Shown in pieces: positions 1-4,713 of a stretch of DNA of 64,000 nucleotides. Every line of letters starts with the position of its first letter. Positions within the stretch are counted from its first letter, which is position 1. The stretch comes from Ruminococcus sp. GTDB taxonomy: Bacteria > Bacillota > Clostridia > Oscillospirales > Ruminococcaceae. A model generated the notes under the pieces. The model searched no databases. It saw only the letters and a program-made list of their open reading frames with translations, and was not told where the DNA came from. The stretch covers positions 1 to 64,000 of the forward strand of contig JAEEVL010000002.1 in NCBI GenBank assembly GCA_016290875.1, given 5' to 3'. The position numbers were made by a program, and so were the translations under genes.

Positions 1-85
1 ACATCTTCCTTTCGCGTTTCGAGTTTTTACTTGTGATGTCAAGAGTTGTCCGGACGTCTTAACTGTGTTCAGTATACACGCTCTC

Positions 86-114
86 TTGACAAAAGTCAAT
101 AGATATAGTATACT
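86..114 (+). promoter_or_regulatory. sigma-A type promoter upstream of 64-aa ORF
   Basis: TTGACA - 17 nt - TATACT. Confidence 0.7.
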
Positions 115-259
115 ATCTCTACTGAGTTCAATCTATAATCTATTTTTATGAACAAATTGTAAACTTTTAGTTTCTATCTATTTATACAGCTATTTTCAAA
201 GCAATCCGCAGTGTTATACATTCTGACGAAATAGAACACTATTTCTGAAAGGAGTTATT

Positions 260-454
260 ATGTTTGAGATAGAAGCACACTACCATGACAGAAAAATATA
301 TCTTTCCGATGGCAGAGTTTATCCGCTTGGAGAGATACTTCTGCGCTATTTTTCAATGAATTTTTATGACTTAGGCGAACTGTTTGACGTATGTGAACGT
401 GCAAAAACAGAGCTGAACATCAGTTCCTTGTTCGGACACATTAACTTTTTCTGA
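260..454 (+). CDS. small hypothetical protein (64 aa)
   Basis: ORF with good SD (GAAAGGAG) and an upstream consensus promoter; no recognised family. Confidence 0.6.
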   Translation: MFEIEAHYHDRKIYLSDGRVYPLGEILLRYFSMNFYDLGELFDVCERAKTELNISSLFGHINFF

Positions 455-484
455 ACCGCCTAAAAATCTGTGAATCTTTAATAC

Positions 485-513
485 TTGACAATTACAAATC
501 ATTATGGTACAAT
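485..513 (+). promoter_or_regulatory. sigma-A type promoter for secreted peptide/ABC operon
   Basis: TTGACA - 17 nt - TACAAT, 75 nt before the ATG at 589. Confidence 0.75.
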
Positions 514-588
514 AACTCCGTTGCTATTTTTCAAAAAATAGTAACACACAATAGTATGTGAATTGGAGAAGAATCAGGAGAAATAACT

Positions 589-993
589 ATGTTAAAAATC
601 AAAAAATCAATAATCGCAGTAAGTGTTCTGACAACTTTCCTTTCAATTAACTTGCTCAACGCAAGCGCCAATTCACCTGCAACCCACGGCAGATTACATA
701 TGGAGTACCATTATGTGCCTATTTTTAAGGATTATGCTTGTGGAAGCACAGATACAAATATTGGATATAATGGCAATAATGTAGATCAGCTTTGGGTTAA
801 AACTACCGTAAAAGTAACTAACAAAAGCGGTGACACAGTAACAGAAAAGTCTGAGGGGTACGGAAATGATGCTTTAGAAGGTAAGAAAAGTGCAACCGCA
901 AAAATCAGAAATATCAAGAAAGCTAATGGCACTCATTCTGGCGGATGCAAAAACGGTCCTTCAGCTACTACATACACCTCACGTACAAGATAA
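589..993 (+). CDS. Sec-secreted small protein, bacteriocin-like (lactococcin 972-like context)
   Basis: 134 aa; K-rich N-terminus, hydrophobic core, ASA-like cleavage site; mature part has only 2 Cys and is rich in G/T/K/N; followed by two FtsX-like permeases and an ABC ATPase. Confidence 0.6.
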   Translation: MLKIKKSIIAVSVLTTFLSINLLNASANSPATHGRLHMEYHYVPIFKDYACGSTDTNIGYNGNNVDQLWVKTTVKVTNKSGDTVTEKSEGYGNDALEGKKSATAKIRNIKKANGTHSGGCKNGPSATTYTSRTR

Positions 994-1094
994 AACACAA
1001 CATATAATAATATAATTACTATTTAATTTACTATACTTTATTCTCCAAGCCACAGCACTATTATTATTAAAATTTGTAAAACGGGATCAATATA

Positions 1095-2129
1095 ATGAAA
1101 ATTATAAAGCTAATATTTATTAACATAACAAAACTGATCCGTGAAAGCAGATCAGTTTTTATTTTTATTCTAACAGGAATCATAGCATCCAGTTTTGGAA
1201 TACTATTCTATTCTGGATATTTTATGTATAACCATTATAACACGTATTATGCTTGTGAAGTCGACATAACTACTGACAGCAATAATTCATCAGAAGAATT
1301 AAAGCAGCTTGTTAAAACTATTATTTCTGAAAGCTCATTTAATACGCTTGTAATGAGCGAAAAAGATTCCGGATTTTCAGACACTGATGTTCTTGGAGTG
1401 TATTATGGAAAGATAGAGAATTTTTTGCTTACCGGCTCAGAATATACCAGTGATGAAACTAATCCAATTGCTTTCCTTTCTGAGGATATAGTAGAACAGC
1501 TTGACTACCATAGAAATATCACTAATGAAAATATCGTCTATGACGGCAAAACTTTTACTGTTTCTGGAATACATAGGAGTTTCTATGCATTCTGTGTACC
1601 CCCTCTATATTACATTGAAAATTATGATGTAAACAACATCCACATAGAACTAGACGATATTATATCAGATAATCTACGGAATTACTTAGATTCATCTGAT
1701 ATAGAATACAGAATAACCAATAATGAGTCACCTTTTAATTCAAGTGAATTCATTATTTCACTTTCCTTGATAATAATAATTTTTTCCCTTTCATTTGTTA
1801 ATATTCTGATGATGTTTTCTTTCTGGAATATAAAAATGAAACAAACTTTTACAGTATATTATATATATGGCTGCAGTCGATTAAAAAAATTTTTTATTGT
1901 ATCCGGACAGATGTTCTTTATATCATTTACAGGAACCATCATAGGTAGTATCCTATACGCTTGTGTATATAAACCTCTCGGAAAACTAAAGATAGTTTAT
2001 TCAGATGATATTAAAGCATATATTCCTATCTTCCTGATAATACTTGCAGTACTACTTGCATTTTCAATTTACTGGGGAATTAAAACTTCGTTAACACAGG
2101 AAAAAACATTTATATTAAAGGAGAAATAA
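1095..2129 (+). CDS. FtsX/MacB-like ABC transporter permease
   Basis: N-terminal TM, extracytoplasmic domain, three C-terminal TMs; directly abuts the next permease. Confidence 0.7.
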   Translation: MKIIKLIFINITKLIRESRSVFIFILTGIIASSFGILFYSGYFMYNHYNTYYACEVDITTDSNNSSEELKQLVKTIISESSFNTLVMSEKDSGFSDTDVLGVYYGKIENFLLTGSEYTSDETNPIAFLSEDIVEQLDYHRNITNENIVYDGKTFTVSGIHRSFYAFCVPPLYYIENYDVNNIHIELDDIISDNLRNYLDSSDIEYRITNNESPFNSSEFIISLSLIIIIFSLSFVNILMMFSFWNIKMKQTFTVYYIYGCSRLKKFFIVSGQMFFISFTGTIIGSILYACVYKPLGKLKIVYSDDIKAYIPIFLIILAVLLAFSIYWGIKTSLTQEKTFILKEK

Positions 2130-3317
2130 ATGAAAGGAATAATAATATGTACTGCTGATCTTATAAAAAAACATATTAAACAGAATATAGTTCTTATGAT
2201 ACAAATAGCTGTAACGATATTGATATTTCTTGGATTCATCGGTAAATTACAATATATATCATCAAAATCTGACATAGCTGAAACGTTTAATTCTAGTAAA
2301 GCTTTATACTACACTCCTTTTTCATTTACGTCTCAGGATATTACTGCTGAAAAAATAATCAAGGATAATTCTTTGGATATTCTCGAAATCGGATGTGTAA
2401 ATCATATGGTTATAAAGAGCAATGATAATCTATATTTATGTCTTGGTTACAATGATGCTATAATTGAACGATGCAATCTGAAATTATCATCAGGAAAATG
2501 GTTCGACGAATATGATAAAACTGACGCTATACCAATCATATCTTTGAACAACAGTTTTTCATTGAATGATACGTTAATGCTTGAAGACAATAACGGAAAA
2601 AAATATGAAGCAGTTGTAATTGGATCCATTTCACCTGATGACTATGTGATAGAGTTCAATCATTCAGGAAATAAGAATGTAATGTCTATAGAGTTTTTTG
2701 CACAAAAACCACAATCAGCATTTATCGTTCCATACAACAGTAAAAAACTGCCAACCGTAACAGACGATTTTGATCACAAACATTTAATTGATGATAGTCC
2801 TGGATTCGTAGGAGAACTTCTTTTCTGCAAAGAAAAATCAGATAATGTTACAATCGAAAAAGCATTTAGCGAATATGGTGAAATTACTGATATTGACCAG
2901 ATGATAGAAAACTATAAAAGAGACATAAAATTTGATTTCATTTCAAACGGAATTATTTTATTTGTATTTACCCTACTTACTGCAGCTGGAATAGGCGGAA
3001 TAAATGGTATGCAAAGTCGCCTTGACAGAAGAAATTATATAATTTATTATATGCTTGGAGCGAATAAAAAAGAATGTGCAGCCATTGAATTTCTCCGAAT
3101 GTTTTCAATCGCAACTACTGGTTTCTTCATCGCTATATTTTTGTATAACGTATCTTCTATAAGAAATCTGCTATATTCAAGTGAAATAATGATAAACATA
3201 TCAACTTTTTGTCTTTCGTTTATCTATATCTTATTTATTTTCTGTATAGTTTCAATGAAATATGTTATAGACCTTGGCAAAGGAAGCCTTATCGATCATT
3301 ACAAAAATCAGGAGTAA
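2130..3317 (+). CDS. FtsX-like ABC transporter permease
   Basis: Same topology; C-terminal block 'GIGGINGMQSRLDRRNYIIYYMLGANKKE' typical of FtsX permeases. Confidence 0.7.
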   Translation: MKGIIICTADLIKKHIKQNIVLMIQIAVTILIFLGFIGKLQYISSKSDIAETFNSSKALYYTPFSFTSQDITAEKIIKDNSLDILEIGCVNHMVIKSNDNLYLCLGYNDAIIERCNLKLSSGKWFDEYDKTDAIPIISLNNSFSLNDTLMLEDNNGKKYEAVVIGSISPDDYVIEFNHSGNKNVMSIEFFAQKPQSAFIVPYNSKKLPTVTDDFDHKHLIDDSPGFVGELLFCKEKSDNVTIEKAFSEYGEITDIDQMIENYKRDIKFDFISNGIILFVFTLLTAAGIGGINGMQSRLDRRNYIIYYMLGANKKECAAIEFLRMFSIATTGFFIAIFLYNVSSIRNLLYSSEIMINISTFCLSFIYILFIFCIVSMKYVIDLGKGSLIDHYKNQE

Positions 3318-3322
3318 AAATC

Positions 3323-3979
3323 ATGCCTATCAAACTAACAAATATATCAAAATCTTTTAACGGTAATTCGTCGAACAAAATAAATGTCCTAAAAAAAATC
3401 GACCTTGAGATACAGGATAATGACATGGTTGCAATAATGGGACGATCTGGAGCTGGAAAATCGACTTTGTTAAATATAATAGGTTGCCTTGATTCTCCAG
3501 ATGAAGGTGAGTATCTTCTTGACGGTCAGGACATCAGCAAACTCAGTAACTCAAATCTTTCTAATTTACGAAATAGTAAATTTGGTTTTATAATGCAGGA
3601 CTTCGCCCTAATTGAAGATGAAACTGTTAGGCATAACATACTGTTGCCGACATATTTTTCAAGAACCAAAATCAATACAAGTTGTGAAGATCTTGCAAAA
3701 AAACTTGGAATATACAAGCTACTTGATACCAAAGCCAGTCTCCTATCCGGTGGAGAAAAACAGCGCACCGCTATAGCTAGAGCTATTATAAATGATTCAA
3801 AATATATTATTGCTGACGAACCAACTGGGGCTCTTGACAGCGTGAATGCCGAAATGATAATGAATATTATTTCAGATTTGCATAAAACAGGAAAAACCAT
3901 AATCATTGTTACTCATGATATAATAATTGCTGAAAAATGCCAACGTGTCCTTACTATTTCTGATGGACATCTAGATTAA
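3323..3979 (+). CDS. ABC transporter ATP-binding protein (LolD/MacB type)
   Basis: Walker A GRSGAGKST, signature LLSGGEKQR, Walker B YIIADEPTGALD; ATG at 3323 follows GGAG. Confidence 0.95.
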   Translation: MPIKLTNISKSFNGNSSNKINVLKKIDLEIQDNDMVAIMGRSGAGKSTLLNIIGCLDSPDEGEYLLDGQDISKLSNSNLSNLRNSKFGFIMQDFALIEDETVRHNILLPTYFSRTKINTSCEDLAKKLGIYKLLDTKASLLSGGEKQRTAIARAIINDSKYIIADEPTGALDSVNAEMIMNIISDLHKTGKTIIIVTHDIIIAEKCQRVLTISDGHLD

Positions 3980-4561
3980 TCATTGACAATCATAACAGTA
4001 TAATGAAACAACAACTCATTACCTTGATATAAACAAGGATTATTGCAGATAACAGAATTTAAATAAAAGACTATTTATTCATAAAAGGAATCTTTTGCAA
4101 TTTTGTTATTATAATTAACTGAAGGCCAGGCATAAATAATCTCCATGAACTAATAAAATCCAGAGAGTGTGTTGTTAATCCCGATTTTTCGCAAATTCAA
4201 ATTCAGTATCTTCCAATGTTTGTGAGTTTGTTGATTGTCTGTCCTCCTTTCTGCTCCACATTTTATAACATTATCTTTTACAGCAACTTGCAGAGTCGAT
4301 CACATAGTAATTAAAAATTCCTATAATCTTATTTTTACTGATACATCTAAGATAATCTTAACAGTGATACGCAATAATTACAATACAAACCATATTTTCA
4401 TGATTAATCAAAATCGAATACTGAACAACTATGAAATATGTCACAAAGCGTTTCATGAATTATAGTAAAAAACAGGAACAATAAAAATCTTTGAGAGGAT
4501 ATTTAAGTAGTTTATTATTTGAATTTGAATTTAAATACTCAGATTATAAATATACTATACA

Positions 4562-4588
4562 AAATCCCGATGCTCAGCATCGGGATTT
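4562..4588. terminator. perfect hairpin, probable bidirectional terminator
   Basis: AAATCCCGATGC-TCA-GCATCGGGATTT. Confidence 0.75.
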
Positions 4589-4713
4589 GTTGTCCTATTC
4601 GATTTGATTTTTGTTTTTCTGCGTTAAGAATATCTTACATCAGAAAGGTTTCACCCAGTAAGCTTCGTAATACTTCTGTATGAGTACCACCGTTATGAGC
4701 GGCTTTGTTCGTA

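Follow-up and report, generated by a model that had tools for sequence, protein, structure and literature searches.

Lactococcin 972-type loci encode an unmodified, Sec-secreted peptide together with a membrane component and an ABC ATPase (PMC12345188, PMC11796350, PMC4289311). Streptococcin B was found in the supernatant without ComAB or BlpAB, supporting Sec secretion, and the functions of the B and C genes are unverified in every lactococcin 972 locus (PMC11796350). Here, we analyzed a 64,000-nucleotide stretch of DNA (the window, whose positions are used below) from a 3.4-Mb genome that belongs to the same genus as Ruminococcus flavefaciens ATCC 19208. An initial annotation had proposed that the window carries a comparable one-strand cluster of a secreted peptide, two FtsX-like permeases, and an ATPase.

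Organization of the operon

ORF analysis bore out the proposed cluster with respect to its ORFs, their order, and their strand. The window forms the left end of its contig (C52), and the operon (589 to 3979, plus strand) encodes a 134-aa preprotein followed by permease 1, permease 2, and the ATPase; the membrane component indeed consists of two separate permeases of 344 and 395 aa. The following features were located.

1..433 (+): multicopy mobile-element-like region in the left flank, outside the operon (blastn, 94% identity to L061, another Ruminococcus genome)
485..513 (+): promoter TTGACA-17-TACAAT with an extended -10 (sequence; aligned promoters before the peptide genes of relatives)
520..545 (+): leader hairpin GTTGCTATTTTT/AAAAATAGTAAC near the transcript start (leader fold z, -3.6)
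550..570 (+): predicted 5' arm of a long-range stem, AATAGT-A-TGTG-AA-TTGGAGAA, ending 5 nt before the Shine-Dalgarno sequence
576..580 (+): Shine-Dalgarno sequence AGGAG (conserved in relatives)
589..993 (+): 134-aa Sec-type preprotein (signal at about 1 to 27, cleaved between ASA and N; mature part, 107 aa)
1041..1062 (+): predicted 3' arm of the long-range stem, TTCTCCAA-GC-CACA-GC-ACTATT, complementary to 550..570
1095..2129 (+): FtsX-like half permease 1, 344 aa, 4 predicted transmembrane segments (TM) (PF02687, 26.3 bits; cutoff, 25.5)
2130..3317 (+): FtsX-like half permease 2, 395 aa, 4 predicted TM (PF02687, 22.6 bits, below the cutoff; 50% identical orthologue)
3323..3979 (+): ABC ATPase, LolD/MacB/TIGR03608-like, 218 aa from ATG (PF00005, 7e-32)

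The promoter matches 11 of 12 consensus positions and carries the TG of an extended -10. Such sites were no more common than expected by chance (29 found versus 27.9 expected from shuffles); nevertheless, the promoter, which had been claimed initially, is credible because, in R. flavefaciens ATCC 19208, an aligned site precedes each of the three peptide genes. Relatives also displayed hairpins of 8 to 9 bp at a comparable position of the leader, and their whole leaders were unexceptional in folding (z, -1.3 and -0.2). Among the ORFs of the window, no two-component gene adjoined the operon and no modification genes were found near the peptide gene; the right-hand neighbor is a GDSL esterase gene.

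Two further observations concern the surroundings and the start of permease 1. The gene in the left flank had eight protein-level matches within its own genome. Window positions 1 to 454 form part of a 264-aa gene whose family was not assigned, with copies on C46, C41, C20, C62, C60, and C3; the window copy and two others end after 64 to 77 residues, and this common truncation point suggests that a mobile or recombining element has its breakpoint there. Within the start of permease 1, a 10-bp hairpin (AAAACTGATC/GATCAGTTTT) is followed by a T-rich run (1130 to 1168). This hairpin is not kept in ATCC 19208.

The secreted peptide

The preprotein starts with MLKIKKSIIAVSVLTTFLSINLLNASA, which on inspection is a typical Sec signal with an MLKIKK n-region, a hydrophobic core, and an ASA cleavage site. 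It has no lipobox or double-glycine leader, and the peptide carries no dockerin or anchor motif. The two cysteines described earlier for the mature part are present but are not kept in relatives. Searches of Pfam, NCBIfam, and PHROG yielded no family match for the peptide, and a match to a non-toxin family, which the initial annotation had regarded as an argument against a bacteriocin, was accordingly not among the results. The mature peptide was modeled as an all-beta or beta-rich protein with low confidence (pLDDT, 63.5), and modeling led by an ATCC 19208 peptide came out poorer (pLDDT, 52.6). A fold search with the first, weak model against PDB and BFVD gave no significant match, and a sequence search of PDB gave no credible match for the peptide or the permeases. 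No relatives of the peptide were found in viral, plasmid, and phage collections; a defense library returned matches to the ATPase alone, generic in look, and Rfam matched nothing over window positions 1 to 4700.

A related operon in R. flavefaciens ATCC 19208

The peptide family occurred in 2 of 126 genomes of the genus, namely, the window genome and R. flavefaciens ATCC 19208, and a genome-wide scan with permease 1 likewise found ATCC 19208 as the sole genome. The four-gene order proposed from the window recurs there: three tandem peptide genes lie directly upstream of orthologous genes for both permeases and the ATPase. Between the two genomes, the peptides share 33 to 48% identity, the two permeases 48% and 50%, and the ATPases 73%. 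A separation of the peptide gene from the ABC genes in relatives would have weakened the proposal; in the one relative found, the linkage is kept. The three tandem peptides share 28 to 86% identity in their mature parts, and each gene has a separate promoter. For two of the tandem copies, dN/dS was about 0.4, with no positive selection.

The ATCC 19208 operon has pilin-like genes nearby and differs in its neighborhood from the window operon. The same linkage in different neighborhoods argues for a mobile functional unit of peptide and transporter, as judged from a sample of two genomes. The pilin-like genes and the lack of a toxin-family match would also fit a secreted protein that serves ordinary housekeeping or surface functions (in adhesion or as a cellulosome or pilus accessory) and sits beside an ABC transporter. 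We regard this explanation as improbable: the linkage is the same at two nonsyntenic loci, the family is rare, the peptide is devoid of dockerin and anchor motifs, and Sec peptides are enriched at homologous operons (see below).

Other observations were made at the ATCC 19208 locus. The tandem peptide genes at L019 7772 to 8179 and 8500 to 8907 are identical over their first 173 bases and then show 37 differences, an abrupt change suggestive of gene conversion. Just upstream of the operon, a carrier-protein-like ORF (L019 6481 to 6750) contains a short masked (N) stretch and may be the terminal part of a nonribosomal peptide synthetase.

A wider class of FtsX/ATPase operons

Profiles of permease 2 recovered homologous operons with split or fused FtsX permeases and an ATPase across the order. 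The fused forms are single proteins of 790 to 856 aa, mostly with 8 TM, which correspond to permease 1 and permease 2 in that order. To be counted, an upstream Sec-type protein had to lie within 700 bases, and ORFs of the same contigs served as controls. A small Sec-type protein was directly upstream in 13 of 45 homologous operons, compared to 5 of 54 control ORFs (p, 0.017). The signal peptides were called by a simple script that was loosened once after it had missed visible peptides, and the controls were scored under the same rule. In the Ruminococcus subset, the proportion was 7/12 versus the same 5/54 controls (p, 0.0005), a value that is optimistic because the subset of 12 was picked after the data were seen. 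Profile comparison detected no homology of the compared upstream peptides to the window family. Many homologous operons, including nearly all of the fused ones, had no adjacent Sec peptide. Next to three of the homologous operons lie AgrB-family genes (one of which scored just under the Pfam cutoff), and LytTR response regulators accompany at least two of the three.

FtsX-type transporters frequently have roles in sensing or detoxification. Together with the many peptide-less operons and the Agr/LytTR signaling genes beside some of them, this points to an alternative in which no toxin is made: the peptide would serve as a secreted signal or as a substrate-binding partner, and the FtsX/ATPase set would form a sensor or mechanotransmission complex like those of FtsEX or BceAB-type detoxification modules. 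However, the three tandem, strongly diverged peptides of ATCC 19208 with their own promoters suit toxin variants better, and the window operon is not adjoined by a two-component gene. We consider this alternative unlikely.

Several members of the class showed features of their own. The permease/ATPase operons of L060 (898 to 7906), L055, and L061 have AgrB-family genes and LytTR/GHKL-type regulators next to them; in L060, the ATPase gene is followed by another Sec-type peptide gene, and serine-recombinase-like genes are found near L060 and L061. These AgrB-adjoining loci are possible quorum-controlled bacteriocin islands. In one genus of the family (L135 to L145), a single genome can carry four or more copies of the fused 8-TM FtsX permease; no adjacent Sec peptide was detected for these copies, which are possibly orphan immunity or detoxification modules.

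Complementary mRNA ends around the peptide gene

Each peptide gene is bracketed by complementary sequences, in that an arm just 5' of the Shine-Dalgarno sequence is complementary to an arm about 50 bases past the stop codon. The longest unbroken helix in ATCC 19208 was 18 or 21 bp, G-U pairs included, against a maximum of 16 in 425 control ORFs. The window stem has 18 pairs and two small internal loops; taken alone, it is unexceptional, as its longest run is 10 and its duplex energy ranks 11th of 145 among AT-rich controls. Between the window and ATCC 19208, four compensatory pairs were seen in a 14-pair register, in which 95% of the cells were paired compared to at most 56% in slid registers. 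Because this covariation comes from three distinct sequences and a register chosen by eye, we grade the conserved 5' UTR/3' UTR stem as moderately supported by sequence comparison. The longest-helix test revealed no bracketing stem beyond the null in other peptide operons, and the number of 5'-3' pairs in folds of whole transcripts did not discriminate.

The complementary ends suggest control at the mRNA level. Pairing with covariation was found, and simple masking of the Shine-Dalgarno sequence is unsupported since that sequence lies just beyond the stem. The stem is probably a stability or processing element of the peptide gene; mRNA stabilization or an RNase III-like cleavage that parts the peptide and transporter mRNAs are the likelier readings. 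A further reading, by analogy, would be a foldback of the toxin mRNA of the sort known from type I toxin systems (PMC6733600). We also considered DNA inversion between the bracketing repeats. It is disfavored, as the departures from complementarity in ATCC 19208 are G-U wobbles and the arms in the window are interrupted.

A candidate bacteriocin with a proposed protective transporter

By analogy with the described loci, we lean toward the reading that the operon pairs a bacteriocin-like peptide with an ABC module for immunity/expulsion, and we hold this to be somewhat probable. The preprotein would exit the cell via the Sec pathway, and its beta-rich mature part may act outside, with close relatives as the most likely victims and the cell envelope as the site of action. 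In the membrane, the half-size FtsX permeases would pair and, powered by the ATPase, would drive the peptide out of the membrane or off its target and thereby protect the producer, as is thought for lactococcin 972 loci. This reading is favored by the ATCC 19208 linkage with diverged tandem peptides, the differing neighborhoods, the enrichment of upstream Sec peptides, the Agr-adjoining homologous operons, TIGR03608 as the best model of the ATPase, and the permeases being halves of fused proteins. Against it stand the missing toxin-family match, the weak fold model, the presence of the family in only two genomes, the many peptide-less operons, the unsupported placement of the ATPase in the tree, and the absence of positive selection.

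The TIGR03608 model is titled putative bacteriocin export ABC transporter, and LolCDE-like complexes pull substrates out of the outer leaflet. Hence, the module might chiefly export or mature the peptide by releasing it from the membrane after Sec translocation, serving secretion and not immunity. The Sec-type signal without a lipobox or double-glycine leader and the recovery of streptococcin B from supernatants independently of ComAB and BlpAB (PMC11796350) make this quite unlikely. Immunity by expulsion is favored over export because Sec secretion needs no dedicated ABC exporter and streptococcin B secretion was independent of two known bacteriocin transporters; of the initially proposed export/immunity function, export is the weaker half, as the Sec signal already provides it.

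A profile search of the PF09683 type would overlook the window peptide as well as the other Sec peptides encoded next to homologous transporters. If these are antibacterial, the FtsX/ATPase set would offer a handle for many unrecognized unmodified secreted bacteriocins of rumen and gut Ruminococcus, in which strain competition affects fiber digestion. To our knowledge, an RNA control layer such as the bracketing stem is undescribed for secreted bacteriocins, and the stem would add one. At its boldest, the locus would represent a new Sec-secreted antibacterial family with two-half-permease FtsX protection and a 5'/3' UTR-clamped mRNA that sets peptide and transporter output separately by folding or stem cleavage, a combination that we regard as doubtful.

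Comparison with known systems

The loci of lactococcin 972, streptococcin B, and mediterrocin share with the window a Sec-secreted, unmodified, beta-rich small protein in one short operon, as well as the kind of transporter, i.e., an FtsX/DUF1430-type membrane component and an ATPase resembling the TIGR03608 group. A Sec signal combined with the lack of modification enzymes, a criterion of the lactococcin 972 family, was found on inspection of the peptide and the neighboring genes. The initial annotation had noted that the peptide does not obviously match lactococcin 972, and sequence, profile-profile, and fold searches all agreed. The peptide has no GGG-W motif and did not match PF09683/TIGR01653 at E ≤ 10, profile-profile comparison (hhalign) with the lactococcin 972 family gave a probability of 0.1%, and Foldseek with the low-confidence model found nothing at E ≤ 0.001, the lactococcin 972 structure being absent among the 50 listed matches. 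The PF09683 failure is no strong sign of unrelatedness, because the model, when applied to control peptides of three TIGR01654 loci, found one just below its limit (L071; E, 4e-4; 21.4 of 22 bits) and one weakly (L074; E, 0.1) and missed the third, and because mediterrocin likewise shares only 18% identity with lactococcin 972 (PMC12345188).

The transporters differ in that the window has two half permeases in place of one DUF1430 protein (724 to 776 aa in the compared lactococcin 972-type loci). Neither permease matched the seven-TM DUF1430/TIGR01654 protein, and no such protein was found in the window genome. Permease 1 aligned over the N-terminal half of the fused lactococcin 972-type permeases (83% probability), and permease 2 gave no alignment. 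TIGR03608, the lactococcin 972-group ABC model, was the best NCBIfam model for the ATPase (8.7e-65, 218 bits), with a score below the cutoff of 254.85. In the tree, the window and ATCC 19208 ATPases formed a lineage of their own, and a grouping with lactococcin 972 ATPases was unsupported. Thus, the initially noted likeness to lactococcin 972 clusters holds for the architecture and the best ATPase model and not, by the peptide and permease tests, for family membership.

Vex123/Pep27 of Streptococcus pneumoniae also combines two FtsX-type permeases, one ATPase, and a small peptide gene; the likeness is one of gene content, and Pep27 differs in its length of 27 aa. The split and fused operons of Oscillospirales (e.g., L057, L060, L134, and L148) share the transporter architecture and in many cases an upstream Sec peptide, but their peptides show no detectable homology to the window family, they have no comparable bracketing stem in the longest-helix test, and some carry Agr-type genes. 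The closest counterpart is the ATCC 19208 operon (L019/L038), which has the same peptide family, both permeases, the ATPase, the promoter, the leader hairpin, and the bracketing stem and differs in its three tandem peptide genes and its chromosomal neighborhood. Membership in the lactococcin 972 group is unsupported, and the best reading, by analogy of architecture, is that the window locus would work like a lactococcin 972 locus.
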